From: Actinomadura graeca
GTDB taxonomy: Bacteria > Actinomycetota > Actinomycetes > Streptosporangiales > Streptosporangiaceae
Direction of reading: 5' to 3'
NCBI RefSeq assembly: GCF_019175365.1
Contig: NZ_CP059572.1
Span: forward strand, 8,781,501 to 8,845,500
DNA length: 64,000 bases
Shown here: piece by piece, positions 3-54,799 of the stretch
Position numbering within the stretch: position 1 is the stretch's first letter
How the letters are laid out: every line of letters begins with the position of its first letter
The notes under the pieces: generated by a model
Seen by the model: only the letters and a program-made list of their open reading frames with translations
What the model was told of the DNA's origin: nothing
Database searches by the model: none
Position numbers and translations under genes: made by a program

Positions 3-158
3 GAGGAGCTGCTGACCCGGTGGCGGGGGGCGTCCCGGCCGCCGGACGGGGCGGACGGCGCCGGTGGCGCGAACGGGGCCAGCGCCGCCGAGCGCCTCGG
101 CGTGGCCACCGCCGACCAGGTCCTCGACTTCATCGACAACGAGCTTGGAATGTCATGA
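3..158 (+). CDS. Modular type I PKS, C-terminal end only (gene starts before the window)
   Basis: The last 51 codons of a modular polyketide synthase run in frame from base 3 to the TGA at 156-158. The peptide ends VLDFIDNELGMS. This resembles the C-terminal tails of the other PKS proteins in this window (for example [10 protein letters not shown] and EFIDRDLG) and matches the helical docking tail that follows the final ACP in this family. No catalytic domain lies in the visible part. The next PKS starts 34 bases downstream on the same strand, so the two are probably co-transcribed and may be consecutive subunits of the assembly line. The short acidic and hydrophobic tail is the only basis for the call. 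Confidence 0.8.
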   Translation, partial: EELLTRWRGASRPPDGADGAGGANGASAAERLGVATADQVLDFIDNELGMS

Positions 159-192
159 CCGAACCGGCCGCGGCGCGTCCGCCGAAGGATGG

Positions 193-9100: not shown

Positions 9101-11802
9101 CGTTCGTGTCGGCGCTGGAGTCCGGCGCCGACGTGCCTCCGGTCGTCCTCGCGGACGTCGCCGCCGCGGACGAGGCGCTGGCGCTCGTGCGGGAGTGGCT
9201 GGACGAGCCGCGGACGTCCGGCATCGTCCTGGCGGTCGTCACGAAGGGCGCGGTCGCGGGCGGGACCGACGAGAACGCGGCGGCGGTGTGGGGGCTGGTC
9301 CGGAGCGTCCAGTCCGAGCACCCCGGCAGGTTCGTGCTCGCCGACGCCGACGGCGGGTCGGACGTGGCCGCCGCCGTGTGGCGGGCGCTGCGCCTCGACG
9401 AGCCGCAGGTGGCCGTGCGCGATGACCGGCTGCTCGTGCCGCGTCTGGTGCCCGCGGGCGCCGCCGCCGAACTGGTGGGCCCGGCGGGACGGCATGCGTG
9501 GCGGCTGGTGGCGGGCCGATCGGGGACGCTGGAGGGCGTGACCGCCGAGGCGTTCCCCGAGGCGCTGGAGCCGCTCGGCCCGGGTCAGGTGCGCGTCGAG
9601 GTGCGCGCCGCCGGGATCAACTTCCGCGACGCGCTCGTCGCCCTCGGCATGGTGACCGCGCCGGGCGGGCTCGGCGGCGAGGGCGCCGGGGTCGTCACGG
9701 AAGTGGGACCGGAGGTCTCCGGACTGTCGGTCGGCGACCGGGTGATGGGCCTGTTCCCGGGTGCGTTCGGGGCCGTGGCGGTGGCCGACGCCCGCATGGT
9801 CGCGGCGATCCCGGACGGATGGGGGTTCCAGGAGGCCGCGGCGGTGCCGGTCGCGTTCCTGACGGCCTGGTACGGGCTGGTGGACCTCGCCCGGCTGCGG
9901 GCGGGGGAGTCGGTGCTGGTGCACGCGGCGACCGGCGGTGTCGGCATGGCGGCGGTGCAGATCGCCCGGCATGTGGGGGCGCACGTCTACGGCACCGCCA
10001 GTCCCGGCAAGCACGGGGTGCTGGAGGAGATGGGCGTGGACGCGGGCCACCGGGCCTCCTCCCGGGATCTGGACTTCGAGGAGGTGATCCGGTCGGCGAC
10101 CGGCGGTGAAGGCGTGGACGTCGTCCTCAACGCGCTCGCCGGGCCGTTCACCGACGCCTCCCTGCGGCTCCTCCGCGACGGCGGACGGTTCCTGGAGATG
10201 GGCAAAACCGACATCCACGACCCCGAGGAGGTCGCCGCCGCGCATCCGGGGGTGGAGTACCGGGTCTTCGACCTGATCTCCGACGCCGGGCCCGACCGCA
10301 TCGGCGAGATGCTCGGCATCCTGGGAGAGCTGTTCGCGGGCGGAGTGCTGCGGCCCCCGCCCGTCCGGACGTGGCCGCTGGAGAGGGCGCGGGACGCCCT
10401 GCGGTACATGAGCCAGGCCCGCCACACCGGCAAGCTCGTCCTGGACGTCCCCGCGCGGCTCGATCCCGACGGGACCGTCCTGATCACCGGCGGCACCGGG
10501 GGTCTCGGCGCGCTCACGGCCGAGCACCTGGCCCGCGAATGGGGCGTCCGGCACCTGGTCCTGGTCAGCAGGCGGGGGGCCGACGCCCCCGGCGCCGCCG
10601 AGCTCGCCGGACGGCTGGAGGCGCTGGGCGCCGCGGTCTCCATCGCCGCCGCGGACGTCGCCGACCCCGCCGCGGTGGACGCGCTGATCGCCGGCATCGA
10701 CCCGGCGCACCCGCTCACCGGCGTCGTCCACGCCGCGGGTGTGGTCGACGACGCGACCATCGGCGCCCAGACCCCCGAGCGGCTCGAACGGGTCTGGGCG
10801 GCGAAGGCCGCGGCGATGGCGAACCTGCACGCGGCGACGGCCCGCCTGCGCCTCGGCATGTTCGTCGTCTATTCCTCGGCCGCGGCGGTGCTCGGCAGCC
10901 CGGGCCAGGCCAACTACGCCGCCGCCAACGCCTACTGCGACGCGCTGGCGGCGCGGCGCCGCGCCGCCGGGCTCGCGGGTCTGTCGGTCGGCTGGGGTCC
11001 CTGGGAGTCCGCGAGCGGCATGATGGCGGGACTGTCGGACACCGACCGGGCCCGGATGAGCCGTGGAGGGTTCGAGCCGCTCAGCAGCCGACGCGGCCTG
11101 GAACTGCTCGACGCCGCCTGCGGCCACGGCGCGCCGTACCTGGTGGCCGTGGAGCTCGACGCCGTTGGCATGGCCGGACGGCCCGCGGAGGCCCTGCCTC
11201 CCGTGCTGCGCGGGCTCGCCGCGTCCGGGACGAGGGGACGCCCGGCCGCCGCCGGCGGGCACCGGCCCGTCGACTGGGCCGGGCGGCTGGCGGGCCTGGC
11301 GCCCGGAGACCAGCTCGACGTCCTGCTGGGGCTGGTGCGCGACCACGCGGCCTCCGTGCTGGGCCACGCCGACCCCGCCGCGGTCCAGGTGGACACCCCG
11401 TTCAAGGACCTCGGCTTCGACTCGCTCACCGGCGTGGAACTGCGCAACCGGCTCGCGGCCGCCACCGGGCTGCGGCTCCCCGCCGCGCTGGTGTTCCGGC
11501 ACCCGTCACCGGCCGCCATCGCCGGCCATCTGCGCGAGCGTCTCGCGCCCGCCGGGCAGGACCCCTCGGCGCCCGTCCTCGGCGAGCTGGACCGGCTGGA
11601 GACGGTGATCGCCCGGTACGGCCCGGACGGCGAGACCCGCGTCCGGCTGACCAAGCGGCTGGAGGCCCTGCTGTGGCGGCTGAACGGCGAGGACGCCGGG
11701 AACGGCGGGGGCGGTACGGCCGCCGTCGACGGAGCGGCCCTCGACGCCGCCTCCGACGACGAGATGTTCGAGCTCATCGACCGGGAACTGGGAACTTCGT
11801 GA
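193..11802 (+). CDS. Two-module type I PKS: KS-AT(mm)-DH-KR-ACP, KS-AT(mal)-DH-ER-KR-ACP
   Basis: The protein is about 3869 residues and extends a polyketide by two units. It opens with a coiled-coil docking segment ([11 protein letters not shown]). Module 1: KS Cys near 207 (TACSSS), AT GHSQGE near 663 with a YASH motif near 766 (methylmalonyl-CoA type), DH His near 977, KR with [11 protein letters not shown] (B type) and catalytic YAAAN, ACP Ser near 1727. Module 2: KS Cys near 1959, AT GHSVGE near 2389 with HGFH (malonyl type), DH with an intact HxxxGxxxxP near 2678, ER with [11 protein letters not shown] and an NADPH loop, KR (VDD, YAAAN, B type) with Tyr near 3575, ACP Ser near 3744. Expected output is a methyl-branched alkene, then a fully reduced CH2CH2 unit. 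Module 1 DH has Ala in place of the conserved Pro. ATG 193 was chosen; ATG 202 is equally possible. The KS2-AT2 stretch uses more T/G-ending codons than the flanks. Confidence 0.95.
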
Positions 11803-11818
11803 TGGGGGTGTGGGACCG

Positions 11819-14800
11819 ATGTCGGCCACCGAGGACAAGCTCCGCCAGTACCTCAAGCGCGTCACGCTCGACCTGGGGCAGACCCGGCAGCGGCTGCGCG
11901 ACATGGAGGAGGGGCTCCGGGAGCCGGTCGCCGTCGTCGGGATGGCCTGCCGGTTCCCAGGGGGCGTGCGCTCGCCCGAGCAGCTGTGGGACCTGGTGTC
12001 GTCGGGCACGGACGCCATCGGGGAGTTCCCGGCGGACCGGGGATGGGACCTCGACGGCCTCTACCACCCCGACCCCGACCACCCCGGCACCAGCTACGTC
12101 CGCCACGGCGGGTTCCTGGACGACGCCGACCGGTTCGACGCCGGCTTCTTCTCGATCAGCCCACGCGAGGCGCCGGCCATCGACCCGCAGCAGAGGCTGC
12201 TGCTGGAGACGGCCTGGGAGGCGCTCGAACGCGCGCGGATCGACCCGGCGTCGCTGAGGGGCACACCCACCGGCGTGTACGCCGGGATCGCCACCCAGGA
12301 CTACTTCTCCGGGGTGCGCGTCCCGCCGGACATCGAGGGCTATGTGACGACGGGCGGCCTCAACAGCGTCCTGTCGGGCCGCATCGCCTACACCCTCGGC
12401 CTGGAGGGGCCGGCGGTCACCGTGGACACCGCGTGCTCGGCGTCGCTGGTCGCCGTGCACCTGGCGTCCCAGGCGCTGCGGCAGGGTGAATGCTCACTCG
12501 CGCTGGCGGGCGGCGTGACCGTCCTGGCCTCCCCGACGGCGTTCGTGGAGTTCTCACGGCAGCGCGGGCTGGCCCCCGACGGACGCTGCAAATCGTTCGC
12601 GGCGTCGGCGGACGGCACCGGCTTCTCCGAGGGCGTCGGCATGGTCCTCCTGGAGCGGCTGTCGGACGCGCGCCGCAACGGGCACCGGGTGCTGGCGGTG
12701 ATCCGCGGCTCGGCCGTCAACCAGGACGGCGCCAGCAACGGCCTCACGGCCCCCAGCGACGTCGCGCAGGAACGGGTCATCGGGCAGGCGCTGGCCAACG
12801 CGCGGCTGTCGCCGTCCGACGTGGACGCGGTGGAGGCGCACGGCACGGGGACGACGCTCGGCGACCCGATCGAGGCGGGCGCGCTCCAGGCGGCCTACGG
12901 GCCCGGCCGCGCCGCGGACCGGCCGCTGTGGCTCGGATCGGTGAAGTCCAACATCGGGCACACCCAGGCCGCCGCCGGCGTCGCGGGCCTGATCAAGATG
13001 GTGATGGCGATCCGGCACGGCGTCCTGCCCGCCACCCTGCACGTCGACGAGCCGACCCCGCACGTGGACTGGGACGCGGGCGGAGTGCGCCCGCTGACCG
13101 CGCCCGTGCCATGGCCGGAGACCGGCCGTGCCCGCCGGGCCGGGGTGTCGTCGTTCGGCATCTCCGGGACGAACGCGCATCTCGTCCTTGAGCAGGCGCC
13201 CGAGGACGGGGAGGACACGACCGCCGCGGGTGACCCCGGCGTGGTGCCGTGGGTGGTGTCGGCCCGCGGCCCGGAGGCGCTGCGGGAGCAGGCGCGGACG
13301 CTGGCGCGGCACGTGGCCGGCGACCCCGGCCTGGCGCCCGCGGACGTCGGATGGTCGCTGGTCGCGACGCGCTCCTCGTTCGAGCACCGGGCCGTGGTCG
13401 TCGGCGCGGACCGTGAACGGCTCCTGGCGGAGCTGGAGACGGTGTCGGCGACCGGGCACCTCACGCCGGGCAAGAGCGTCTGGCTGTTCAGCGGCCAGGG
13501 CAGCCAGCGGGCCGGGATGGGAGCCGGCCTGTACGAGCGGTTCCCGGTGTTCGCGGCCGCCTTCGACGACGTGTGCGGCCGCCTGGACCCGCGTCTGAAG
13601 GAGGTGGTCTTCTCCGGCCCGGCCGAGGAGCTGGAGCACACCACCTTCGCCCAAATGGGGTTGTTCGCCGTGCAGGTCGCGCTGGCGCGGCTGCTGGAAT
13701 CGGCGGGGCTGCGCCCGGACGCCGTCGTGGGGCACTCCATCGGCGAGGTGGCCGCCGCGCACGTCGCCGGGGTGCTCGACCTGGAGGGCGCGTGCCACCT
13801 GGTCGCGGCCCGCGCCCGCCTCATGGGACGGCTGTCCGGCGGCGGGGGGATGTGGGCCGTCGAGGCCGACCCCGCCGAGGTGGAGGACGGCCTGCCCGAA
13901 GGCGTCGGCGTCGCCGCGGTGAACACCCCCGACAGCACGGTCGTGTCGGGACCGTCCGCGCTCGTGGCCGAGGTGGGGGCGTCGTGGGCGCGGCGCGGCC
14001 GCAAGGTGAAGGAGCTGCCGGTCAGCCACGCGTTCCATTCGGCGCTGATGGAGCCGATGCTCCCCGGCTTCGCCGCCGCGCTGGAGAAGGTGGCGTTCCG
14101 CCCGCCGCGCATCCCGCTGATCAGCAACATCACCGGGCTGCCCGCGGGGGACGACATCGCCACCGCGGACTACTGGGTGCGGCACGTCCGGCGGCCGGTG
14201 CTGTTCGGCCCGTCCATCGCCCGCCTCGCCGGCGAGGCGGCGCTGTTCGTCGAGCTGGGCCCCGACCCGGTGCTGACCTCGGCTGTCGAGCGGATCCTCG
14301 ACGGACACGAGCCCGTGGCGGTCGCAGCGCTTGACCGCCGCCAGGACGACGCCGAGGCCCTCGCGCGGGCCCTGGGCCGCCTGCACGCCCACGGCGTCGA
14401 CGTCGACTGGACGGGCTGGTTCCCCGCCGCCCGCGCGGTGGACCTGCCCACCTACGCCTTCCAACGCCGGCGCTACTGGCTCCCGGACGTCGCGGGACTC
14501 GAACCCGCGGCCGGAGTGCGGGACGAGGACGGCGGCCGGTTCTGGGCGGCGGTCGAGAGCGGTGACCTGGACGCGCTGTCCGAGACGCTGCGCCTGGACG
14601 ACGACGGCCACCGGTCATCGCTGGCCGCGGTGCTCCCCGTCCTGTCCGGGTGGAGGCGCGAGCAGGCGGAGCGGTCGGCCGCGGACGCCTGGCGCCACCG
14701 GATCGGATGGCGCCGCGTCGACGCGCCCGCCGCGGGCCCGCCCGGCTTCTGGCTCCTGGTCCGCTCCGCACAGGACCAGGACCACTGGGCCGGGGACGAC

Positions 14801-16672
14801 TGGGCCGGGCACCTCACCCGTGCCCTGGAGGGGGGAGGCGGCCGGGTCCGCGAGGTCGAGATCGACCCGCAACTCGACCGGGGCGGGCTCGCCGCGCTCC
14901 TGCGCCCCTGGATCGACGGAGACGAGCCGGTCGCGGGCGTCCTGTCGCTGCTGGCCCTCGACGAGCGCCCGCACGAGAGCCTTCCCGGGCTGGGCGCCGG
15001 GTTGTGCGGCACGCTCACGCTCGTGCAGGCGCTGGCGGACACCGGCTCGGAGGCGAGGCTGTGGTGTGCGACCCGCGGAGGGGTCGCGGTGAACGACTCC
15101 GAACCGCCGGAGTCCGCCGTCCAAGCGCAGGTCTGGGCACTCGGCCGGGTGGCGGCGCTGGAACACCCCTCCCTCTGGGGCGGCCTGCTGGACCTGCCGG
15201 GCGACCCTGAGGAGGCCGACCCGGGCCACCTGCGCGCGGTCCTCACCGGGCCGGACGGCGAGGACCAGGTGGCGCTGCGGCGCGGCGTCCTGCTGGGACG
15301 GCGCCTGCTGCCCGCCCCGCCCGGGGACACCACCGAGCAGGAGTGGGCGCCGCGGGATCCCGTCGTCGTGACCGGCGGCATGGACGGCCCGGCCCCGCAT
15401 GTCGCGCGGTGGCTCGCGGAGCGCGGCTCACGGCACGTCATCCTCCTCAACCCGAGGGGCCCGGACGCCCCCGGGGCCGCGGCCCTGGTGGAGGAGCTGG
15501 CCGGGAACGGCACGGACGTGACCGTCGTCCGGGACGGCCGCCGAGCGGACCCGGCCGGGGACGCGGGCGACGCGCCGGGCACGCGCGCCGGCACCCTGGT
15601 CCATGCCCCGGCCCCCGGCGACCCGCTGCCGCTGGCGGACCTCACCCCCGCGCAGCTGGCGGCGGCGGCGGACGCCGGCCCCGGCCCCGTCGCTCAGGAG
15701 GCCGAGGAGATCGTGCTGTTCTCCTCCGTGGCGGCCGCCTGGGGGGCGAACGACCACGGGCTCCACGCGGTCGCCGGAGCGTCCCTGGACGCGCTGGCCC
15801 GCCGGACCCGGGCGGCCGGACGCCGCGCGCTCTCGGTGGCGTGGGGACCGTGGGACGTCCGGGACGGCGGCGGCGCGCCGGGCGACCTCGCGCGCCCGCA
15901 CGCCGACCGCTCCCGGCGGCTCGGCATCGACCCCCTGGAACCGCGCCTGGCCTTCGCGGCGCTGGGCCGCGCGCTCGGCGGCGGGGACGGCCCGGACCTC
16001 GTGATCGCCGACGTCGCCTGGGAGCGGTTCGCGGCGCTGTTCACCCTCGCGCGCCGCAGCAGGCTCCTCGACGACCTACCCGCGGCGGCGCGGTTCGCCG
16101 ACGCCGGACGCGACGACGGCGGCGGCGGCTCCGCCGAGGCCCTCGCCGCCCTGCGCGACGAGCTGGCCCCCCTCGCCGGGACGGACCGGGCGGCCGCGAT
16201 GCTGACGCTGGTGCGCTCCCACGTGGCCGCCGCGCTGCGGCACGCGGAACCGGAGCAGGTGGAGGCCCACCGCGCCTTCAAGGACCTCGGGTTCGACTCG
16301 ATCGTGGCGGTCGAGCTGAGGAACCGGCTGCGTGCCGCCACCGGGCTGCGGCTGCCCGCCACGCTGGTCTTCGACCACCCGACGCCGAAGGACCTGGCCG
16401 CGCACCTGCTGGCGGGGGTCCTCCCCGACACCGCGGCGTCCGCGCACCCCGCGTTCGGGCACCTGGACCGCCTGGAGTCCGCCCTGGAGGCGCTCCCTGC
16501 GGGGGACGCCCGGCGCGCCGACCTGGCGAACCGCCTGCGGACCCTGCTGTGGAAGCACGCGGACGCCGCAGGCGCGGAGGCCCCGGAGCCGGACGGAGCG
16601 GACGACCTCGACGTCGCCACCGCCGAGGAGATGTTCGCCCTCATCGACCAGGAATGGGGCGCCGGAGCCTGA
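11819..16672 (+). CDS. One-module type I PKS: KS-AT(mal)-KR(inactive)-ACP
   Basis: The protein is 1617 residues and starts at ATG 11819, 16 bases after the previous stop. A GTG three codons upstream is less likely. It has an N-terminal docking coil ([11 protein letters not shown]), KS Cys near 206 (TACSAS), AT GHSIGE near 640 and a HAFH motif (malonyl-CoA type), then a KR structural half, a KR catalytic half and an ACP with Ser near 1494. The catalytic KR half is degenerate. The dinucleotide loop reads TGGMDGPAP instead of TGGTGGLG, and the catalytic YAAAN is replaced by HAVAG, so the Tyr is lost. The KR should be inactive and the module should leave a beta-ketone. No TE domain follows. The C-terminal tail (ALIDQEW) is docking-like. 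It is the last gene of the plus-strand PKS run and faces the epoxidase gene. Confidence 0.93.
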
Positions 16673-16792: not shown

Positions 16793-18226
16793 TCAGGTGG
16801 CCCCCACGATCCGGCTGGAGTCCAGGTCCACCAGGGCCATCTCCTCGGAACGCAGCGGAGGGCCGGCCAGCTCCGGGCGCAGCTCGCCCTTGTGCAGCAG
16901 GGACAGGAACCGCGCCGACCCCATCTCCGACTGCGGCGCGGACAGGCTCATGACGTCCGTCACCACCGCGCACACCTCCGGGTCGCGGATCGTCCTGGAG
17001 GTGATGAAGTCGCTGAACCGCAGCCGGTGCTCGGTGTCGGAGCCGACGAGCCGCGGGTCGGTGGTCCTGCTGCGCGAGTGCACGTAGTCGATGTCCTTGA
17101 ACGCGGCCAGGATCCACGGATCGTCCACCACCGACCCGACGGCCCGCTGGATCCGCCGCGCCGCGTCCGGGGTGTACCCGTCCGCGCCCAGCCGCTCGTC
17201 CAGGATGGCGGCGGACCGCGCGGCGGAGCTCATGCCGTGCCCGTAGACCGGGTTGAACGCCGTCAGCGAGTCGCCGACGACGAGCAGCCCGTCCGGCCAC
17301 TCGCCGAGCCGCTCGGGGTACAGGCGCCGGTTGGCGCCCGACCGCGACCCGTAGACGGGGGTCAGCGGCTCCACCGACCCCAGCAGGTCGGCGATGAGGG
17401 GATGCGCCAGCGTCTCCGCGAAGGGCAGGAACTCCTCCTCGCGTGTGGGCAGGTCCGCGCCGCGGGTGCACGACAGCGTCGCGATCCAGCGGCCCCCCTC
17501 GACGGGGTACACCACCCCGAACCGGCCGGGGAGCTTCACGCCCGCGTCGGAGACGATGTTGACGGCGGGGAACCCCGCCGACGCCCCGGGCGGTGCCTGG
17601 AAGATCCGGGTGGCGTACGCGATGCCCGCGTCGACCACGTCCTCCTCGACCGGGGGGACGCCCAGGTCACCGAGCCAGTGCCGCAGGCGCGAGCCGCGGC
17701 CCGTCGCGTCGACCACCAGGTCGGCCTCCAGGACGGACTCCGCGCCGCCGTCGAGGTCGCGGACGACCGCGCCGGTGACCCGGCCGCCGTCCGCCGCGAG
17801 CCCGGCGACCTCCGCGCGCTCCCGCACGGTGACGCGCCCGGCGGACAGGATCTGGTCCCGGACGACCCAGTCCAGCAGCGGGCGGGTGCACAGCAGCGCG
17901 AACTGGGTCGCGGGGAAGCGGTGCTGCCAGCCCCGGGTCGTCAGGGTGACCAGGTCCTCCTGGAAGCCGAGGCGGCGGGCGCCCAGGCCGAGCAGCCGCT
18001 CGACCGTCCCGGGCAGCATCTCCTCGATGAGGTGCGCGCCGTTCGACCACAGCAGGTGGGCGTGGCGGCCCTGCGGCACCCCCTTGCGGTGCGCGGGGGA
18101 GACGGGCAGGACGTCGCGCTCGATCACGGTGACGGCCGCGAAGTGCCGGGACAGCGCGTGGGCGGCCAGCACCCCCGCCATCCCGGCGCCCAGCACGACC
18201 GCGTGCGCCGGTCCGCCCACGGTCAC
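16793..18226 (-). CDS. FAD-dependent epoxidase, MonCI/Lsd18-like
   Basis: This 477-residue flavoprotein has an N-terminal Rossmann FAD loop (GAGMAG at 13-18, followed by Glu near 36) and the second FAD motif VGDSLTAFNPVYGHGMS near 310-325. An RKGVPQGRHAHLL segment is typical of the squalene-epoxidase-like flavin monooxygenases of polyether clusters (MonCI, SalC, Lsd18). Those enzymes epoxidise the alkenes of the linear polyketide before ring closure, and the same role is inferred here. It starts with GTG, overlapping the stop of the preceding epoxide hydrolase gene by four bases (GTGA). It is the last gene of the minus-strand PKS operon. The substrate cannot be read from the sequence, and a hydroxylase of the same family is the main alternative. 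Confidence 0.85.
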   Translation of the reverse strand: MTVGGPAHAVVLGAGMAGVLAAHALSRHFAAVTVIERDVLPVSPAHRKGVPQGRHAHLLWSNGAHLIEEMLPGTVERLLGLGARRLGFQEDLVTLTTRGWQHRFPATQFALLCTRPLLDWVVRDQILSAGRVTVRERAEVAGLAADGGRVTGAVVRDLDGGAESVLEADLVVDATGRGSRLRHWLGDLGVPPVEEDVVDAGIAYATRIFQAPPGASAGFPAVNIVSDAGVKLPGRFGVVYPVEGGRWIATLSCTRGADLPTREEEFLPFAETLAHPLIADLLGSVEPLTPVYGSRSGANRRLYPERLGEWPDGLLVVGDSLTAFNPVYGHGMSSAARSAAILDERLGADGYTPDAARRIQRAVGSVVDDPWILAAFKDIDYVHSRSRTTDPRLVGSDTEHRLRFSDFITSRTIRDPEVCAVVTDVMSLSAPQSEMGSARFLSLLHKGELRPELAGPPLRSEEMALVDLDSSRIVGAT

Positions 18227-18693
18227 GTCCCCGTCCCGTCGAGGGCGGGGACGCCGCCGGGGGCGCCGGTGCCGGCGTCCGCCTGCCCGTCCGTGTGCCC
18301 GTCCTTGTGCCCGGCCGACCCGCCGACCGCCATGTCCGTCATCCCCCAGAACGCCTGGACGCGGCGTCCCAGCCCGTCCTCGTCCAGCTCGACGATGCCG
18401 ATGATGTTGAAGGTCATCACCGCGGGGACCCGGACGACGACCCGCGTCTGCGTGACCACCAGCCGGTCGTCCATCGAGGTCACCGGCGGGCCCGGCGTCT
18501 CGTGCGCCCGCGCGCCGACCGCCAGCGCGATGTGCTCGCGCAGCGCGTCCTTGCCGATCAGCGGCGGTCGCCCCACCGGATCCTCGAACACGATGTCGTC
18601 CCCGAACAGGTCGAGGACTCCGTCGATGTCGCCGGCGTTGATCCGCCGGACGTACTCCAAGGCCATCGCCTTGCGGGCCGCCTCACTGGGCAT
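18223..18693 (-). CDS. NTF2/SnoaL-fold polyether epoxide hydrolase, MonB/Lsd19-like
   Basis: This 156-residue single-domain protein belongs to the limonene-epoxide-hydrolase/ketosteroid-isomerase fold. From ATG 18693 (GGAGG just upstream; a GTG two codons earlier would overlap that site) the sequence places Asp38 in FEDPVG and Glu65 in AHETPG. These are the same positions as the catalytic pair I recall for Lsd19 domain A. The family opens epoxides by intramolecular hydroxyl attack to form cyclic ethers. It lies between a second copy and the epoxidase, an arrangement like monBI, monBII and monC. The C-terminal 20 or so residues are polar and probably disordered. Which of the two copies makes which ring cannot be told from sequence. 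Confidence 0.85.
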   Translation of the reverse strand: MPSEAARKAMALEYVRRINAGDIDGVLDLFGDDIVFEDPVGRPPLIGKDALREHIALAVGARAHETPGPPVTSMDDRLVVTQTRVVVRVPAVMTFNIIGIVELDEDGLGRRVQAFWGMTDMAVGGSAGHKDGHTDGQADAGTGAPGGVPALDGTGT

Positions 18694-18729
18694 GCACACC
18701 TCCGGGACGGTCGGCCGACCTGGGTGAGG

Positions 18730-19191
18730 TCAGCCGACGACTTTCAGATCCGACCTTCCCCAGAACGCCTTGAGCTCCTGGACGAGGCCGTCGGGGCCGA
18801 CCCGGAGCATCAGCACGTAGTAGCGCTCCAGGCGCGTGCCCTCCGGGTCGGCGGGGGGCTCCAGCCAGCCGCGTCCGGCGTAGACCGGGCCCCGGGGCAG
18901 GTAGTCCATGACGGACGTGACCGACGTCAGCACGTGCACGCCGTCCTGGCCGGCGACCGGCGCGCCGGGCACCTCCCGGGCGTGCGCGGCCACGGCCTCC
19001 TCGACGTGGGCGCGCAGCGCGTCCCGTCCCGTCCGCCGGCCCGAGCCGACCGGGTCCTCGAAGGCGACGTCGCCGGCGTACAGCGCCATCACCCCCTCCA
19101 CGTCGCCGGCGCTCAGCAGCCGGCAGTGGTCGAGCACCAGGTCCTTACGGCTGCGCTCGCTGGTCAGTTTCGTCGTGAGCAGGCTCGCCAA
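18730..19191 (-). CDS. NTF2/SnoaL-fold polyether epoxide hydrolase, second copy
   Basis: This 153-residue protein is a paralogue of the neighbouring hydrolase, with the same FEDPVG motif. Asp46 and Glu73 (HAREVPG) are 27 residues apart, as Asp38 and Glu65 are in the sister protein, so the catalytic Asp/Glu pair is intact. A C-terminal AFWG motif is shared by both. The best start is TTG 19191, preceded by GGGAGGGAGA at good spacing. This start lies inside the last 47 bases of the upstream PKS gene, so the genes are translationally close. The role is inferred as a second epoxide-opening cyclase acting with the sister enzyme after epoxidation. Confidence 0.83.
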   Translation of the reverse strand: MASLLTTKLTSERSRKDLVLDHCRLLSAGDVEGVMALYAGDVAFEDPVGSGRRTGRDALRAHVEEAVAAHAREVPGAPVAGQDGVHVLTSVTSVMDYLPRGPVYAGRGWLEPPADPEGTRLERYYVLMLRVGPDGLVQELKAFWGRSDLKVVG

Positions 19192-22100
19192 GGCCCGTCT
19201 CCCTCCCCAGATCGCGGTCGATGAACTCGAAGATCTCTTCGGCGCTGGACGCCCCGATACGGTCGGCCACGCCTGTGGGCGCGGCGCCGTCCTGCCCGTT
19301 CCGCCCGTCGGTCCCGCCGAGGCGTTGCAGGGTGCCCCGCAGCCGCCGCGCGAGCGTCTCCCGCGCCGCCTCGTCCGCGGAGGCGAGCCGGAGCGCCTGC
19401 TCCAGCCGGTCGATCTCCGTCAGCGCCGAGGCCAGCGGGTCGGCCTCCGGCGGGTCCAGCTCGGCGAGCAGGTAGCGGGCGAGCTCGGCCGGGCCGGGAT
19501 GGTCGAAGACGAGGGTGGCGGGCAGCCGCAGCCCGGTCGCCGCCGACAGCCGGTTGCGCAGCTCGACGGCGGTGAGCGAGTCGAACCCGAGCTCGCGGAA
19601 CTTGAGCGCGGGGTCCAGCCCCTTGGCGGTGCCGTGGCCCAGCACCGCCATGGCGTGGGATCCGACCAGGTCCAGGACCGCGCGCTCCCGGTCCTCCTGC
19701 GCCAGGCCGCTCAGCGACCGCGCCAGGTCCGGCGCGGGCGCGCCGCCTGCCTGGGAGGCCGTGCCGCCTACGAGCCGCCGCAGGACCGCGGGCGTGTAGT
19801 ACCCCTGGGCCTGGCGGCGCATCCGCGCGAGGTCGAGCCGTACCGGCGCCAGCACGGAGCCGCCGCCGGCGAGCGCGGCGTCGAACAGGGCGAGGCCCTG
19901 CTCGACGCTCAGCCCGACGACGCCCGTGCGGGCGTTGCGGGCGCGGTCGGCGTCGGTGAGCCGTCCGGCCATGCCCGTCTCCATGTCCCAGTGGCCCCAT
20001 GCCAGGGACGTGCCGGGCAGCCCCAGGGCCTGCCGGTACTGGGCCAGCGCGTCGAGGAAGTTGTTGGCGGCGGCGTAGCCGCCCTGCCCGGCGCCGCCGA
20101 TCAGCCCGGCGACCGAGGAGTACAGCACGAACGCCGACAGGTCCGCGTCCCGGGTCAGCTCGTGCAGGTGCCACGCCGAGTCGGCCTTGACGCGCAGCAC
20201 CGCCTCGATCTGCGCGGGCTCCAGCGACGGCACCGTGCCGTCGCCGACGATCCCGGCGGCGTGGACGACCGCGGTGAGGGGATGCTCCGCGGGCACGGCG
20301 GCCAGCGCCGCGGCCAGGGCGGCGCGGTCGCCGATGTCGCAGGCGGCCAGGGTCACGTGGGCGCCGAGCCCGCTCAGCTCCTCGACCAGCGCGTCCGCGC
20401 CGGGTGCGGCGTGCCCGGTCCTGTTGAGCAGCAGGAGCCGGCGCACACCGTGCCGGGCGGCCAAATGCCGCGCGGTCTCCGCGCCGAGGGCGCCGGTCCC
20501 GCCGGTGATCAGGACGGTGCCGCCCGGGTCGAGCGGGACGGGCAGCGTGAGCACCGCCGGTCCCGCGCCGACATGCCGGGCCTGCGGCAGGCGGCGGACG
20601 TCCAGGACGGGCACCGGACCGGCCTGCGCCGCGTGGCCGTCCGAACCGGCCGCTTCCGAGAACGACCTGCCGGAAGGCAGCGTCACAAGGGTCCGTCCGT
20701 CGGCGGCGACCACCGGCCCGACCTCCCGGACGGGACCCGCGACCCGGTCGCCCGGGGCGAATCCGCCGGCGTCCGGTCCCACTTCGGTGACGACGCCCGC
20801 GCCGTCACCGCCGACGGGCCCGGGGCCGCCGTCGAGGTCGCGGACGCCGACGGCGCGCAGCGCCACACGCACCTCGCCTGGGCCAAGCACGCGTTCCGCC
20901 TCGGCCGCCTCCGCCGCGGGCTCCGCGAGGACGACGCCGCCGTCGCGGCCGGTCCGCTCCAGCCGCCAGTGACCGGCGTCCTCTGGCGGGACGAGGCGCC
21001 CGCCGGGGTCGTCGCGGACGAGCCGGGGCAGATACGCCCGGCCGTCGCGGAGCGCCACCTGGGGTTCGCCGGACGCCAGCACCGCGGGCACCGCCTGGAA
21101 CGAGGCGTCCGACCCGTCCACGTCGAGCAGGGTGAGCCGGTCGGGATACTCCGACTGCGCGCTGCGCCCCAGCCCCCAGAGCGCCGCCGCGGGCAGGTCG
21201 TCGACGGCGTCGCCGGGGCGGACCGCGGCCGCCCCCGGGTGACGAGGACCAGCCGGGCGGCCTCGAACTCGGGCGCGCCGAACCACTCCTGGAGCAGTGC
21301 CAGCGCCGTGGTGGCGGCCCGGCGGCTCTGCTCGGCGACGCCGTCCGCGTCCGCCGGGGCGGTGAGGACGGCGACGACGACTTCCGGGTGCCGCGTCCCG
21401 TCGGCGGCGGCCGCGCGGAGCGCCTCCAGGCCGGGTGCGGACGAGGCGCCGGTCATCGCGGCGGCCAGCCCGGCGGCCGTCGGGTCGCCGTCGGGGACGA
21501 CGGCCGCCGCCGGGGCCGCGGGCGCGTCCGCCGGGATCGGCAGGGGCGTCCAGCCGAGCTGGAAGAGGGCGTCCCGCTCCGCCGACCGCCCAGGGTCCAG
21601 CCGCCCCGCCGGCACCGGCCGGACGGTCACGCTCTCCAGGTCGGCGACGGGACGGCCGAACGGGTCGGCGGCGGTCACCGACAGCTCGTCGGCCGAGGTC
21701 CGGGAGATCCGCACGCGCAGCCGGCCGGCGCCGGTGGCGTGCAGGCGCAGCCCGCTCCAGGAGAAGGGCAGGAGGATCTCGTCCGGCTCCTCCGAGGACG
21801 CGGTGACGTCGAGGATGAGGGCGTGCAGGGCACCGTCCAGGAGGACGGGGTGGAGGCCGTAGTCGGCGGCGCGCGGGCGTTCCTGGTCGGGAAGCGCCAC
21901 CTCGGCGTAGATGTCCTCGCCCACCTTCCACGCGGCGGTCAGGGACCGGGAGGCCGGGCCGTAGCCGTAGCCGCGCCCGGCGAGATCCGGGTAGGGGTCG
22001 CCGGCGGTGATCGGCACGGCGCCCGGAGGCGGCCACGCGCCGCCGAGGCCGGAGGCGGGCGCCTCCGGTGGCAGTGACGCCAGCGCGCCGGTCGCGTGCC

Positions 22101-25100
22101 GCGTCCAGGCGGACTCACCGGCGGCCGGCGCCGGCCGCGAGTGGACGGCCAGGGGGCGCCGGCCCGTCTCGTCGGCGGCGCCGACCGTCACCTGGAGGTC
22201 CAGGGCGTCGGCGTCCGGGACCGCCAGCGGCGTGTGGACGGTGAGCTCGGCGACGTGGTCGCATCCGGCGCGCGCGGCCGCGTGCAGGGCGAGCTCGACG
22301 AACGCGGTACCCGGCAGGAGCACGCTGTCCGCGACCCTGTGCTCGGCCACCCAGGCGTGGGACCGCCGGGTGAGCCGTCCCGTGAGCAGCAGCGTCCCCC
22401 CGTCCGCGGGCTCCACGGCCGCGCCCAGCAGCGGGTGCCCCGCCGAGTCCAGCCCGAGCGCCGACGGCTCGCCGCTGCCGCGGTCCCTGACCTCCAGCCA
22501 GTAGCGCTCGCGCTGGAAGGCGTAGGTCGGCAGCGGCACGGTCCGCGGCTCCGGGTCCGCGGGGAACCACCCGGTCCAGTCGACCCCGGCGCCCGCCGTG
22601 AAGGCGTGGCCCGCCGCCCGCGCCATCTGCCGCGGACCGCCGTCGTCGCGGCGGAGGGTGGGGATGGTGACGGCGTGGGTGCCGGTGTGGTCGAAGGTCT
22701 CTTGCATTCCGATGGTGAGGACGGGGTGGGGGCTTGCTTCGATGAAGATGCGGTGGCCGTCGTGGAGGAGCGCGCCGATCGTGTCGGCGAACCGGACCGG
22801 CTGGCGCAGGTTGGTGATCCAGTACCCCGTGTCGAGGGTGGTGGTGTCGGTGCGGGTTGCGGTGACGGCGGAGTAGTAGGCGACTGGTGCGCGGGTGGGG
22901 GTGATGTCTGCCAGCTGGGTGGTGAGGGTGGTGGTGAGCTGGTCGATTTGGGGGCCGTGGGAGGCGTAGTCGACGTCGATGAGCCGGGCGCGTAGTCCTT
23001 GTTCCTGGGCGGTTTGGACGAGGGCGGCCAGGGGTTCGGGTGGTCCGGAGATGACGGTGGAGGACGGGCCGTTGACGGCGGCGATCACGACGCCGTCGCG
23101 GTCGCCGATCAGCTCTGCGGCCTGGTCGGCTCCCATGCCCAGGGAGGCCATCGTCCCCTTGCCGGACAGCGCGCGTAGGGCCCGCGCCCGGACGGCGACG
23201 ATTTTGGCGGCGTCTTCGAGGGTGAGGGCACCGGCGACGCAGGCGGCGGCGATCTCGCCTTGGGAGTGCCCGATGACTGCGGCGGGCCGTACGCCGTGGT
23301 GCTCCCAGAGGGCGGCCAGTGAGACCATCACCGCCCACAGCACGGGCTGGAGCACGTCCACCTGATCCAGCGGTGACCCGTCGCTGCGCAGTACCTCGGT
23401 CAGGGACCAGTCGACGTGGGGTCGCAGTGCCTCTTCGCATTCGGCGATGCGGGCGGCGAACACCGGTGAGGTTTCCAGGAGTTCGGCGCCCATCCCGGCC
23501 CACTGCGAACCCTGGCCCGGGAACACCAGTACCGGTCCCGACCCGGACGGGTCGGCCGTCCCGGTGACGAGGTCCGTGTGCGCACCGCCCTGCGCGAGGG
23601 CGTCGAGGCGTTCCAGCAGCTCGTCGCGGTCATGGCCGACCATCACGGCCCGATGCTCGAACACCGACCGTGTCCTGATCAGCGACCAGCCGACATCCGC
23701 TGCCGAAGGCTCCGTGTCGGCGGCGATCCGCTCGGCCAGGACCCGCGCTTGGGCGCGCAGCGCCTCCGCGCTCCGTGCGGAGACGACCCAGGGCGTGACC
23801 GCGTCCGTGCGCGGCGTCGTGTCCGCCGATGGCGGGGTGCTCGTCGAAGGTTCGGTCTCGGGTTCGGGTTCGGGTGCTTGTTCGAGGATGAGGTGGGCGT
23901 TGGTGCCGGAGATGCCGAAGGCGGAGATGGCGGCGCGGCGGGGGCGGGGGTGTGCGGGCCAGGGGGTGGGCTGGGTGAGGAGGTGCAGGGTGGTGGTGTT
24001 CCAGTTGATGTGGTGGCTGGGCTGGTCGATGTGGAGGGTTTTGGGCAGGAGGCGGTGGTGGAGGGCTTGGGTCATTTTGATGATGCCGGCGATGCCGGCG
24101 GCGGCTTGGGTGTGGCCGATGTTGGATTTGACCGAGCCGAGGTAGAGGGGGTGGGTGGTGGGGCGGTTGTGGGTGTAGGTGGTTTGGAGTGCGTGGGCTT
24201 CGATGGGGTCGCCGAGGGTGGTGCCGGTGCCGTGGGCTTCGATGGCGTCGATGTCGTGGGGGGTGAGGTGGGCGGTGGTGAGGGCTTGGCGGATGACGCG
24301 TTCTTGGGCGGGTCCGTTGGGTGCGGTGAGTCCGTTGCTGGTGCCGTCTTGGTTGACGGCGGTGGAGCGGATGATGGCGTGGATGTGGTGGTGGTTGCGC
24401 TGGGCGTCGGTGAGGCGTTCCAGGAGGATGAGGCCGGCTCCTTCGCCCCATCCGGTGCCGTCGGCGGCGTCGGCGAAGGGTTTGCAGCGTCCGTCGGGGG
24501 CCAGTCCGCGCTGGCGGGAGAATTCGGTGAAGGCGCCGGGGGTGGCCATGACGGTGGCTCCTCCGGCCAGCGCCAGTGAGCAGTCACCATCCCGCAACGC
24601 CTGCACCGCCAGATGGGTGGCGACGAGGGACGACGAGCATCCGGTGTCGACGGTCAGCGCCGGACCCTCCAGCCCGAACGCGTAGGAGATCCGGCCGGTG
24701 GCCACGCAGCCGAGGCTGCCGGTCCCGACGTATCCCTCCACCTCGCTCGCCGCCTGGGCGAGCAGCGAGGCGTAGTCGTAGATCGTCAGCCCGGCGAAGA
24801 CGCCGGTGTCGCTGCCGTCCAGGGCCTCGCGGGTGAGCCCGGCCCGCTCGAACGCCTCCCACGCCACCTCCAGCAGCAGCCGCTGCTGCGGGTCCATCGC
24901 CACGGCCTCACGCGGGCTGATCCCGAAGAACCCCGCATCGAAGTCGCCCACGTCGTACAGGAAGCCGCCCTCGCGGACGTACGACGTCCCGGGACGGTCG
25001 GGGTCCGGGTCGAAGAGCCCGTCCAGGTCCCAGCCGCGGTCCTCGGGGAACGGGCCCATCGCGTCCCGCTCCGCGACCAGCAGGTCCCAGAGCTGCTCGG

Positions 25101-28100
25101 GGGTACGGACGTCCCCGGGGAACCGGCACGCCATCCCGATGATCGCGATCGGCTCGTCGCCCCCGGCGACCACCACCCGGGGGCGCTCGGCGGCGGCCTG
25201 CCGCCCGCCGGACAGCTCCGACAGGAGGTGGTCGGCGAGCTCCAGGGGCGTGGGGTGGTCGAAGAGGATCGTGGTGGGGAGCCGGAGCCCGGTCGTGGCG
25301 TTGAGCTGGTTGCGGACCTGCACGGCGGTGAGCGAGTCGAAGCCCAGCTCCTGGAACGGCTTGGACGCCGGGATCGCGTCCGCGCCGGTGTGGCCGATGG
25401 CCGCGGCGGCCTGCTGCCGGACGTGGTTCAGCAGGATCTGCCGCCGCTGCTCCGGCGTCGCGCCGTCGAGCTCCTGCGTCAGCGGGGTGGTCTCCCCGGC
25501 CGGGCCCGAGGACGGGCCGGCGACCGGCTCGGCGTTCTCCGGGAGGTCGCCGAGCAGCGGGCTCGGCCGCTGCGCGGTGAACGTGGGCCAGAACCGGTCC
25601 CAGTCGATGTTGGCGACCGTGGTCGTGGCCGTCCCGGCGGCGACCGCCTGGAACAGGGACGTGAGGGCGAGGTCGGCGGAGAGCGGGTGCAGGCCGAAGC
25701 GGCTGAAGAACGCCAGCGAGTCCTGGTCGGCGGCCATGCCCGCCTGGCTCCAGGGCCCCCAGGCGACGGAGGTGGCGGGCAGGCCCTGGGCGCGGCGGTG
25801 CTCGGCGAGGGCGTCGAGGTGGCTGTTGGCGGCGGCGTAGGCGGCTTGCTGGCCGCTGCCCCAGGTCGCGGCACCCGAGGAGAAGAGTACGAACGCCGAC
25901 AGGTCCATATGCCGGGTCAGTTCGTGCAGGTGCTGCGCCGCATGCGACTTCGGCCGCAGCACCTCGTCGAGCGCCTGCGGGTCGAGATCGTTGATGGCGA
26001 TGTAGTTCGGCACGCCCGCGGCGTGCACCACCGCGCCGAGCGGATGCTCGGACGGGATCTCCGCGAGGAGCCGCCGCACCGCCTCACGGTCGGAGACGTC
26101 GCAGGCCGCGATGGTCACGGCGGTGCCGAGCGCGGTCAGCTCGGCGGCCAGTTCCGACGCCCCGGGAGCGTCGGCGCCTCGGCGGCCGGCCAGGAGCAGG
26201 CGAGGCGCGCCCGCCGCGGCGAGCCGCCGGGCCAGCAGCGCGCCGATGCCACCCGTCCCGCCGGTGATCAGAGTGGTGCCATCGGGGCTCCACTCGCCGG
26301 GCAGCGGGGCCGGGGGCGCGTGGCCCAGCCGGCGGGCCCAGACGGCCGTGGCCCGGACGGCGGCCTGGTCCTCGGGCTGCCCGGGGGAGAGCAGCCCCGC
26401 CAGGCGCGCGACGGTGTGGTGGTCGATCGTCGCGGGCAGGTCGATCAGCCCGCCCCACGTCCTCGGATGCTCCAGGGCGGCGACCCGGCCGAAGCCCCAC
26501 ACCTGCGCCTGTGCCGGGCTCAGCAGCGGATCGCCCGGGCCGGTCGAGACCGCGCCCTGGGTGAGGGTGTACAGGGGGGCGGTGAGATCGGCGTCGCCGA
26601 GCGCCTGCACGAGGGCGGTGGTGGCCGCGAGCCCGGCGGGCACCGCGGCATGCCCGGGGCGCGCCTCCTCGTCCAGGCCGAGGAGGTTGACGACACCCTC
26701 CAGCGCCGTGTCGCCGGAGAACCGCCCGAGCAGGGCGGCGAGGGAGTCGCGGTCGGCCTCGCGGGTGTCGACGAGCTGGAGTTCGGCGGTGGCACCCTGG
26801 GCGCGCAGGGCCCGGACGGTGGTGCGCACCGCCGAATGGTCCGGGTGCGCGGCGGGGGCGAGCAGCAGCCACGTCCCGGCCAGGCCCGCGGCCGCGGCGT
26901 CGGGAAGATGTTTCCAGGTGACGTGGTAACGCCACGAGTCCATGGTGGCCCGCTCGCGCTGCTCGCGCCGCCACGCCGACAGGACGGGCAGCGCGGGACG
27001 GAGCACGCCGGTGGTCTCGGGGTCGTCCTCCACCTGCAGCACACCGGACACCGCGTCGACGTCGAGGTCCTCGATCGCCTGCCAGAGCCGCGCCTCGGCC
27101 GGGGCGTGCCCGTTGCCGTTGCCGTTCCCGTTCGACGCGGCGGGAGGCTCCAGCCAGTAGTGCCGGCGCTGGAAGGCATAGGTGGCCAGGTCCACGACCT
27201 TGGGAGGCGGGTCGGTGCGGAACCAGCCGTCCCAGTCCACGGCGACACCGCTGACGAAGACCTCGCCCAGCGACCGGAGCACCTGGACGAGACCGCCGTC
27301 GTCGCGGCGGAGGGTGGGGATGGTGACGGCGTGGGTGCAGGTGTGGTCGAAGGTCTCTTGCATTCCGATGGTGAGGACGGGGTGGGGGCTTGCTTCGATG
27401 AAGATGCGGTGGCCGTCGTGGAGGAGCGCGCCGATCGTGTCGGCGAACCGGACCGGCTGGCGCAGGTTGGTGATCCAGTACCCCGTGTCGAGGGTGGTGG
27501 TGTCGGTGCGGGTTGCGGTGACGGCGGAGTAGTAGGCGATTGGTGCGCGGGTGGGGGTGATGTCTGCCAGCTGGGTGGTGAGGGTGGTGGTGAGCTGGTC
27601 GATCTGGGGGCCGTGGGAGGCGTAGTCGACGTCGATGAGCCGGGCGCGCAGTCCCTGGGCTTGGGCGGCTTCGACGAGGGCGGCGAGCGGTTCTGTCGGG
27701 CCGGAGATGACGGTGGAGGACGGGCCGTTGATAGCGGCGACCACGACGCCTTCGGTGTCGGCGCCGAGCTCGGCGATGAGCCTGGTGGTCGCCTCCTCGC
27801 CCGCGCCCAGGGAGGCCATCGTCCCCTTGCCGGACAGCGCGCGTAGTGCCCGGGCACGGACGGCGACGATCTTCGCGGCGTCTTCGACAGTGAGGGCGCC
27901 GGCGACGCAGGCGGCGGCGATCTCGCCCTGCGAGTGCCCGACGACTGCGGCGGGCCGTACGCCGTGGTGCTCCCAGAGAGCGGCCAGTGAGACCATTACC
28001 GCCCACAGCACGGGCTGGAGCACGTCCACCCGGTCCAGTGAGTCTACGTCACCACGGAGGACTTCGGTCAGGGACCAGTCGACGTGGGGTCGCAGGGCCT

Positions 28101-34826: not shown

Positions 34827-35045
34827 CGGTGGCCGCGGCCGCTCCTCTCCGCGAGAACGGGCGCGCTTGACCACGCCCGTTCTGGAGCATCGACGGCGCC
34901 GCTAAAGCACTGCTAATCCCTCGGCGGCCGACAATGTGCGGTGACCGCGCCCGCCTTCTGGCGGCGCGCGCGATTAGCGCGGGACTAGGGCCGCTTAAGC
35001 GCGGCTCGAAAGGCTCGAACATCCCCTGGCTGAATCGAGGCTTTC
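34827..35045. promoter_or_regulatory. Divergent promoter region between PKS operon and P450
   Basis: This 219-base gap separates the minus-strand PKS operon from the plus-strand P450. It should hold both promoters. It contains CTAGGGCC at 34983-34990, a weak version of the recurring CTAGGGGT box, 55 bases before the P450 start. It also has a GCTAAT...ATTAGC pair of inverted half-sites and the partial palindrome around GCTTAAGC near 34991. No clear -35/-10 pair was found. Confidence 0.4.
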
Positions 35046-37759: not shown

Positions 37760-37953
37760 GGTCACCCTCCCGCCGTTGCCGGCGTGGCGGAAATGCATAT
37801 GTCGAGACGAATTCTAATAATGGCGAACTGTGTCGGCCACCCCTAGCCGCCCGCCCCTGCCCCCTGGCCGGATGAAATGCGGGAAGTAGGGGTTGTTGTG
37901 CTCTTTCCTATGCCGAGTATTGACGGGAAGGGTTCTTTGAGAGGTTGTGACTG
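37760..37953. promoter_or_regulatory. Divergent promoter region, CCR / KAS III, with CCCCT boxes
   Basis: The gap holds ACCCCTAG at 37839-37846 (CTAGGGGT toward CCR), further CCCCT repeats at 37853-37865, and GTAGGGGT at 37886-37893 pointing toward KAS III. The CCR-side box is 16 bases upstream of CATTAT (minus strand, 37822-37817), where a -35 element would sit. On the KAS III side TTGACG at 37920-37925 is 17 bases from GGTTGT. All assignments are by eye. Confidence 0.5.
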
Positions 37954-43447: not shown

Positions 43448-43493
43448 TCCAGGAGGATCACCCGGTCCCGGGCGGCCCGGCAAGCCCCGGCCG

Positions 43494-46479: not shown

Positions 46480-46580
46480 AAAGGATCCGTTCCTGACTGG
46501 GCAAGACCGCGGCGTTGTCCCGGCACCTGCCGGCGGGCGTGTTCTCCGGCGAGCCTAGGTCCGGTCAAGGCGCCTTCCAC

Positions 46581-46638: not shown

Positions 46639-46675
46639 ACGTCCGGGAACGGCCACCGGATTTAGCCGGATTTTA

Positions 46676-54358: not shown

Positions 54359-54733
<375 letters not shown>

Positions 54734-54784
54734 GTTGTCGTCAGCCTTTCTCGCCCGTGACCGGGCCGGTCCGCATACGAACGA

Positions 54785-54799
54785 CACAGTGTGACTGTG
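54785..54799. promoter_or_regulatory. Inverted repeat upstream of ACP/sugar operon
   Basis: CACAGTGTGACTGTG (6 bp arms, 3-base centre) lies 52 bases before the ACP start, in the 291-base gap shared with the second TetR gene. It shares ACACAG with the operator-like palindrome at 54988-55003. It could let the TetR protein also control this operon; this is a weak inference. The same gap contains a 10 bp palindrome GGCTTAAGCC at 54814-54823. Confidence 0.35.

Follow-up and report, generated by a model that had tools for sequence, protein, structure and literature searches.

Which compound is specified by a polyketide synthase (PKS) locus of Actinomadura graeca that combines the enzymes of polyether formation with a set of sugar genes? 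The locus lies in a stretch of 64,000 nucleotides, called the window here, which corresponds to positions 8781501-8845500 of contig 1 (NZ_CP059572.1) in a genome of 8.98 Mb on three contigs. A sequence-only reading of this DNA had described a squalene-epoxidase-like flavoprotein and two adjacent NTF2-fold hydrolases encoded behind PKS genes, and had deduced a sugar-bearing polyether whose identity was not evident. Gene content, homology, module order, specificity motifs and conservation in Actinomadura macra led us to a more specific answer: the cluster probably makes a monensin-type polyether carrying a 4-O-methyl-2,3,6-trideoxyhexose. Newly read here are the monensin type of the backbone and its combination with the sugar cassette.

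The three open reading frames (ORFs) at the centre of the question were found on the minus strand exactly where they had been drawn, and their third-position G+C of 0.95-0.98 represents a strong coding composition. The first (16793..18226, 477 aa) encodes a MonCI-type FAD epoxidase, predicted from homology and tree position to be a triepoxidase. In a search against all solved structures MonCI was the top match (residues 1-473, E 3e-212, 709 bits), followed by Lsd18/LasC with 443 bits; nine distinct solved-structure sequences in total passed E 0.001. The window epoxidase and MonCI share 68% identity, and MonCI is 99% identical to the Streptomyces protein P0017. The assignment as a flavin epoxidase thus stood, whereas the squalene label did not (marginal Pfam squalene epoxidase match, E 0.34) and is better replaced by MonCI/Lsd18 family. 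The two small ORFs code for a MonBII-like (18223..18699, 158 aa) and a MonBI-like (18730..19191, 153 aa) NTF2-fold epoxide hydrolase/cyclase, as indicated by structure-sequence matches. The former scored 185 bits with the MonBII part of the MonBI/MonBII chain versus 66 with the MonBI part (E 3.5e-77), the latter 144 bits with the MonBI part versus 69 with the other, MonBII, part (chain E 8e-62), in agreement with the proposed pair of polyether-type hydrolases. An aromatic polyketide locus with an aromatic hydroxylase and SnoaL-type cyclases would be compatible with the generic FAD_binding_3 and SnoaL_2 domains assigned to the trio by Pfam, but it is hardly conceivable in view of the overwhelming MonCI/MonB matches and of a surrounding PKS of modular type I. 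The aromatic (aklavinone) hydroxylase model DnrF reached 18 bits at a cut-off of 650, and the SnoaL aromatic cyclase model gave E 0.12 and 0.019 on the two small proteins, far under its cut-off. The aromatic reading was rejected on these scores, which left the polyether assignment intact.

Two PKS genes (34874-29934 and 29889 to ~19145) lie upstream of the trio on the same strand with near-zero gaps, confirming that the trio follows PKS genes, and it is plausible that all of them form one operon. The trio is convergent with a plus-strand PKS series ending at 16672. The genome of the window contains a single epoxidase gene at E <= 0.001, whereas two epoxidase genes each are present in A. roseirufa (L007), G068 and G035, three Actinomadura loci with glycosyltransferase relatives.

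Phylogenetic analysis placed the flavoprotein among polyether epoxidases. For the homologue search 7992 candidates sharing most words with the query were scored, and 120 of 2253 matches were listed; the tree consisted of 41 rows comprising 35 of these 120 listed matches, five loci and MonCI. The window epoxidase formed a clade with its A. macra counterpart and one metagenome protein (support 100, starred), and this clade was sister to MonCI and the protein of Streptomyces sp. CS684 (SH-aLRT 94, slightly below the starred level). Strain CS684 produces laidlomycin according to the available text of PMC9144361. Grouping of the flavoprotein with the MonCI and laidlomycin epoxidases is in line with the earlier assignment. 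The epoxidases of Actinomadura sp. J1-007 and of A. roseirufa LMG 30035, presumably the semduramicin producer, fell into a separate clade (99, starred). J1-007 is described as a maduramicin source in the available text of PMC10951976. Of 65 Actinomadura genomes, 11, including that of the window, carry an epoxidase at E <= 1e-100, six of them with at least 59% identity; one of these six, G028, matches an A. macra contig and probably represents genome G001 (A. macra NBRC 14102) a second time. Among Streptomyces, 83 of 295 genomes had a MonCI relative at the same threshold, mostly with 43-53% identity, and an epoxidase alone at that level may therefore mark polyether clusters poorly.

As the window contains only a part of the PKS, we added flanks of 59 kb on the left and 15 kb on the right and mapped the domains by tblastn. 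The loading module and modules 1-6 are located left of the window (L003-L004). Modules 7 (methylmalonyl) and 8 (malonyl) are encoded at 64..11802 (+) and module 9 (malonyl) at 11810..16672 (+), while the minus strand carries module 10 (methylmalonyl; 29934..34874) and modules 11 and 12 (both methylmalonyl; 19145..29889). The loading module has the architecture KSQ-AT-ACP, with an acyltransferase (AT) and an acyl carrier protein (ACP) next to the ketosynthase (KS) variant. Module 1 contains AT and dehydratase (DH) domains without a match for a ketoreductase (KR). Modules 2, 4, 6 and 8 possess DH, enoylreductase (ER) and KR domains, modules 3, 5 and 7 DH and KR, modules 10 and 11 KR, and module 12 DH, an ER remnant and KR. 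Module 9 gave a weak KR, which lacks the usual Tyr motif and is predicted to be inactive, leaving a ketone at C9. The order of reduction known from monensin, with loading plus 12 modules, is thus present, two of the genes being frame-broken. A whole-genome KS list displayed 13 KS domains and KSX at the locus and no further modular-PKS KS nearby; a second large modular PKS locus with nine KS domains resides elsewhere in the same genome (C1:5757688-5800766).

The module number bears on the possibility of a C30 glycosylated polyether of the semduramicin, maduramicin or nanchangmycin kind, which would require chain elongation to 15 units ahead of oxidative cyclisation. Such a product would suit the sugar O-methyltransferase and glycosyltransferase, which are near those of other glycosylated Actinomadura loci, as well as the entry 'nanchangmycin (69%)' among the 27 antiSMASH regions of A. 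graeca 32-07, probably the host strain, in the available text of PMC8631618. However, the locus of Actinomadura genome G068 has a KSX-like domain in addition to 15 KS domains, which we read as a loading module and 14 further modules, compared to loading plus 12 in the window. Furthermore, the genome-wide list holds no extra modular-PKS KS near the locus, and the window epoxidase lies outside the clade of J1-007 and A. roseirufa. We therefore consider a C30 product very unlikely and rejected it on 12 modules versus the 14 of G068.

The backbone code is of the monensin type as well, so that the product identity, first judged not evident, became readable once the flanks were included. All 13 modules contain the AT motif GHSxGE. 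The specificity motif is HAFH or HGFH, for malonyl, in the loading module and modules 3, 6, 8 and 9 (five), AAGH, which we take to be an ethylmalonyl mark, in module 5 only (one), and YASH, for methylmalonyl, in modules 1, 2, 4, 7, 10, 11 and 12 (seven). YASH as methylmalonyl mark and HAFH as malonyl mark follow the available text of PMC6164871. Monensin A is built from five acetate, one butyrate and seven propionate units, as stated in the available text of PMC3943991, and the 5:1:7 sum of the window, counted from AT motifs only, equals this published code. As the KR of module 9 is devoid of the Tyr motif and module 1 is without KR match, ketones would remain at C9 and C25. Both ketones belong to monensin chemistry. 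The KS motif TA(C/Q)S was found in 12 of 13 modules; module 12 has DTGCSSS with the Cys retained. Taken together, loading plus 12 modules with monensin-block motifs and relatives of MonCI, MonBII and MonBI make a monensin-type polyether likely, and with a modular type I PKS, KSX and ACPX also present, the claim of a polyether locus was substantiated. A thioesterase domain, for which no dedicated search was run, was not noticed after the last ACP; the ORF ends ~0.3 kb past this ACP, which is insufficient length for a thioesterase.

Direct sequence comparison with the monensin (mon) cluster covers MonCI and MonBI/MonBII. As module-level reference we used Streptomyces G118, which is of the monensin/laidlomycin type; two other candidates for a monensin reference, L008 and L009, turned out not to be one. 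A tree of 35 KS rows grouped the window with G118, directly or together with A. macra, for the loading module, modules 2, 3, 7 and 10, and KSX. Assembly-line homology between the window and G118 is well supported by these sequences, orthology of every module pair not being proven.

Several observations weigh against a functional monensin-type assembly line with the proposed product. Clear orthology in the KS tree extends to five of 13 modules, loading counted, plus KSX; the rest falls short, modules 1/4, 6/8 and 11/12 being mixed and module 9 unresolved. Modules 3, 5 and 7 each contain a DH domain, but module 3, which would need to dehydrate, has HxxxD for HxxxG, a form shared with module 12, where dehydration would be unwanted, and the DH motif of module 7 is off as well, ending in A and not in P. 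The corresponding motifs of modules 3 and 7 in G118 are of the usual form, unlike those of the window. A MonE-type 3-O-methyltransferase was not found in the cluster, the part of the genome searched for it. Finally, reading frames are disrupted at two sites, one separating DH from the ER remnant of module 12 (~20600-22000, minus strand) and the other, in the left flank, separating KR from ACP in module 2 (~-24000 to -23600 in L003). At both sites the ORF stops and resumes in a different frame, which could reflect assembly errors or broken genes. If the breaks were real, the cluster would be decayed and no polyether made. This is unlikely, since A. macra modules 11-12 constitute one open frame of 3738 aa, and the window retains the AT and KS motifs described above as well as an intact codon composition of its other ORFs. 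Indels are common in G+C-rich stretches of long-read HGAP assemblies. The published A. graeca genome is such an assembly.

Two further features of the last modules were observed. The ER of module 12 (20545-21205, minus strand) is a remnant without the nucleotide-binding core; its A. macra counterpart is longer but divergent, and that of G118 is likewise poor and partial. At the DNA level, 1.2 kb is 93.8% identical between modules 11 and 12 (23870-25051 and 28505-29686, minus strand), which suggests recent gene conversion. The part of the gene concerned has a reduced G+C, several 1-kb bins lying at 0.69-0.72.

The sugar predicted by the sequence-only reading found its counterpart in an eight-gene trideoxyhexose cassette (45166-54311), which in the window as in A. 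macra is located between the KSX gene and that for the discrete ACPX; the products of all eight genes are 60-90% identical between the two. It starts with an activator-dependent EryCIII-type glycosyltransferase gene (45166..46479, minus strand; TIGR04516 475 bits, cut-off 440). Four genes on the plus strand follow. The first (46676..47650) codes for a sugar O-methyltransferase with relatives so named in A. fibrosa, A. oligospora, A. roseirufa and A. macra; its true start is probably later than annotated, as the homologues have ~302 aa. The others encode an NAD-dependent epimerase-family protein, predicted to act as 4-ketoreductase (47605..48657, start uncertain), an RfbH-like pyridoxal phosphate-dependent 3-dehydrase predicted to carry out 3-deoxygenation (48641..49945; NF011936 667 bits, cut-off 423), and an NDP-hexose 2,3-dehydratase (49942..51333; PF03559 E 5e-157). 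On the minus strand lie genes for a GFO/IDH/MocA oxidoreductase, predicted to be a 3-ketoreductase (51411..52409), an NDP-hexose 4,6-dehydratase (52399..53517) and an NDP-hexose nucleotidyltransferase (53403..54311). No RmlC-type 3,5-epimerase was present among the genes scanned, which makes a D-configured 4-O-methyl-2,3,6-trideoxyhexose the simplest prediction, with its stereochemistry deduced from gene content.

Relatives of the glycosyltransferase at E <= 1e-80 were detected in five of eight genomes (G001, G002, G014, G035 and G068), all of them epoxidase-bearing Actinomadura. No such relative occurred in the other three, Streptomyces whose epoxidases share 83% identity or more with P0017. 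A four-genome search revealed two relatives in Streptomyces G003 (43-47% identity, E ~1e-96), demonstrating that the family is not exclusive to Actinomadura; G004 had no match better than E 1e-8. The match in G014 and in G035 contains one TGA. The 2,3-dehydratase (E <= 1e-30) was distributed less cleanly than the glycosyltransferase, occurring in eight of ten genomes including G118, where it is megabases away from the polyether locus, and G099, where it is on contigs other than that of the epoxidase.

These data also bear on whether the cluster yields a plain monensin or laidlomycin analogue that leaves the cell as aglycone, the sugar genes being silent or serving another product. The PKS and ring-forming enzymes do match those of G118, whose surroundings (160 kb read) contained no sugar cassette, and a sequence cannot reveal where a sugar is attached. 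Nevertheless, this alternative appears improbable given the position of the sugar genes between KSX and ACPX in two species, the sugar type of the only methyltransferase found in the cluster, and the occurrence of glycosyltransferase relatives in five epoxidase-bearing Actinomadura but in none of the three Streptomyces with MonCI-type epoxidases, Streptomyces G003 with its two relatives notwithstanding. The methyltransferase had been considered as MonE; this was dropped, as its relatives are named sugar O-methyltransferases. A glycosylated monensin-type polyether is thus the reading followed below.

Further genes lie between the PKS and the sugar cassette. A MonD-like P450 (35046..36299, plus strand), predicted to be the terminal C-26 hydroxylase, is 70% identical to a P450 of G118; its nearest solved structures are CYP125/CYP124. 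The cassette 36404-39824 fits the AAGH motif of module 5. It comprises a crotonyl-CoA carboxylase/reductase (CCR) for ethylmalonyl-CoA supply (36404..37798, minus strand; TIGR01751 566 bits, cut-off 379) and, on the plus strand, a ketoacyl synthase III (37954..38964) and a 3-hydroxybutyryl-CoA dehydrogenase (38922..39824), both with a predicted role in butyrate/ethylmalonyl supply. A. macra has the same motif in module 5 (AT 87% identical) and the same supply genes. In contrast, G118 and G035 have YASH at this position, and their CCR matches (160 and 100 kb read, respectively) were weak (25-26% identity) and all located on PKS ER domains. A KSX-like chain-transfer ketosynthase with an AT remnant (39835..42453, minus strand; active-site stretch DTACSSA) is adjoined by a MonCII-like alpha/beta hydrolase with a predicted role in chain release (42530..43483, minus strand), which shares 53% identity with the hydrolase next to KSX in G118. 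Genes for a TetR regulator (43598..44287, plus strand) and a type II thioesterase (44301..45053, minus strand) follow. Beyond the sugar genes lies the discrete ACPX-like acyl carrier protein (54359..54787, minus strand), which shares 60% identity with the ACP adjacent to KSX in G118. A second P450 (58382..59650, plus strand) is EryF/sb21-like and a possible installer of the sugar-bearing hydroxyl. Its relatives at E <= 1e-100 were present in five of ten genomes, namely A. macra and the four other Actinomadura genomes with glycosyltransferase relatives. That it might be a heme-less glycosyltransferase activator was dropped, because the Cys motif FGHGLRHC is kept.

From these genes we infer the following pathway, in which each reaction, the product, the sugar stereochemistry and the attachment site are predictions. 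The PKS would synthesize a premonensin-like triene with double bonds from modules 3, 5 and 7, ketones from modules 1 and 9 and an ethyl branch from module 5. KSX would transfer the chain to the discrete ACPX. The three double bonds would be epoxidised by the MonCI-like enzyme, and the epoxides opened by the MonBI/MonBII pair in a cascade to form the ether rings. C-26 hydroxylation would fall to the MonD-like P450, release of the acid to the MonCII-like hydrolase. A TDP-trideoxysugar is predicted to arise through the nucleotidyltransferase, the 4,6- and 2,3-dehydratases, the 3-ketoreductase, the RfbH-like 3-dehydrase and the 4-ketoreductase, and to be methylated by the O-methyltransferase. Attachment would be carried out by the EryCIII-type transferase, perhaps to the hydroxyl introduced by the second P450.

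A more detailed proposal is offered tentatively. The cluster might be a natural hybrid in which chain assembly and cyclisation are of the monensin A type and the trideoxysugar cassette is that of the Actinomadura ionophores; its product might then be a 3-O-demethyl monensin glycoside with the sugar on the second-P450 hydroxyl. The A. macra orthologue might be the source of CP-47,433 and CP-47,434, which we take to be A. macra polyethers, and the AT change in module 12 might separate the products (2-methyl in the window, 2-ethyl in A. macra). Literature searches gave no published work on A. macra polyethers by title, and no article describing the gene cluster of a glycosylated compound of the monensin type, subscription papers being outside their scope. 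The formulas of portmicin and CP-84,657 suggest by formula arithmetic the existence of sugar-bearing polyethers with such a chain length. Together with the loading-plus-12 reading of G035 they argue against regarding a sugar on a monensin-sized chain as unheard-of, a notion that was dropped; compounds combining such a chain length with a sugar may already be known. Monensin is a veterinary antibiotic and among the best-studied polyethers. If correct, our reading would provide a monensin-tuned glycosyltransferase for engineering analogues and, with the window and A. macra, a natural one-module AT change useful for the same purpose. It yields exact masses to look for, the predicted [M+Na]+ being 807.4865 for C42H72O13, or 823.4814 if a further oxygen is present, with 128.08 (C7H12O2) as neutral loss and an aglycone expected near 679.40 or 695.40. 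It may also tie an orphan cluster to polyether producers described decades ago.

Between the ACPX gene and the second P450 gene, the plus strand encodes a TetR regulator (55025..55711), a DrrA-like ABC transporter ATPase (55708..56658; possible export or self-resistance) and a hydrophobic protein (56655..58250; no Pfam match, start uncertain), likely the permease partner of the ATPase. By homology, the unit 55025-58250 is a candidate for self-resistance or export. The cluster is adjoined (60554-64000 and L005:1-11211) by what may be a salicylate-type siderophore locus, with genes for a chorismate-binding enzyme, a periplasmic binding protein and a large nonribosomal peptide synthetase, whose scanned part contains three condensation and three adenylation domains. 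In a search of a plasmid collection, none of 53 records covered 80% of the query. A. graeca 32-07 has one chromosome and two plasmids, and its average nucleotide identity to A. macra is 89.6%, according to the available text of PMC8631618.

The locus was compared with the closest known systems. The lasalocid system uses the same enzyme families (Lsd18/Lsd19), but its epoxidase is a weaker match than MonCI (443 vs 709 bits) and its hydrolase is a single chain of 283 residues, whereas the window has a pair from two genes; a lasalocid type was rejected on these grounds. The mon cluster of Streptomyces cinnamonensis, like the present locus, encodes eight PKS proteins (frame-broken genes of the present locus counted once each) with loading plus 12 modules and the 5:1:7 code, one MonCI-type epoxidase, a MonBI/MonBII pair, a MonD-like P450, KSX, ACPX and a MonCII-like hydrolase. 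It differs in having the 3-O-methyltransferase MonE, and its gene inventory in the available text of PMC10560226 names no sugar genes. G118, whose epoxidase is 83% identical to P0017, shows the same 13-step order with module 1 lacking KR, a weak KR in module 9 and DH, ER remnant and KR in module 12, and its homologues include the MonD-like P450 (70%), KSX (55%), ACPX (60%) and the MonCII-like hydrolase (53%). Its module 5 AT has the methylmalonyl motif YASH where the window has AAGH; the 160 kb read around its cluster contained neither ethylmalonyl supply genes nor a sugar cassette, and its genome no glycosyltransferase relative at E <= 1e-80.

Further comparisons concern loci of the same genus. 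The A. roseirufa LMG 30035 locus has an epoxidase (66%), a MonB-like pair, two glycosyltransferases (52-54%) and a sugar methyltransferase (74%), but differs in its two epoxidases, which flank the MonB pair, one per side, and belong to the other clade. The available text of PMC10951976 describes the products of A. roseorufa, presumably the same species, as mono- and di-glycosylated and names A. fibrosa as source of CP-84,657 (A82810). Genome G014 appears to be A. fibrosa, since its sugar methyltransferase is 100% identical to a protein named for that species; although fragmented, it contains epoxidases and homologues of the glycosyltransferase and 2,3-dehydratase. The A. oligospora-like G035 has 13 KS plus a KSX-like domain, epoxidases, a MonB pair, a glycosyltransferase (60%) and a sugar methyltransferase (76%). 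It differs in its two epoxidases, a malonyl module 7, a methylmalonyl module 9 and an unusual AT motif in module 11, and it lacks a MonD orthologue, the best match reaching 33%, as well as ethylmalonyl genes in the 100 kb read. A. macra NBRC 14102 (contigs C25 and C42) harbors a syntenic orthologue with the complete sugar cassette, an epoxidase of 90% identity and AAGH in module 5. In contrast to the window, the tailoring order is partly changed and the module 12 AT has VAGH (L023, C25:103718-104614) in place of YASH (22660-23538), which, judged by these motifs, would be a natural one-module specificity change altering the C-2 branch.

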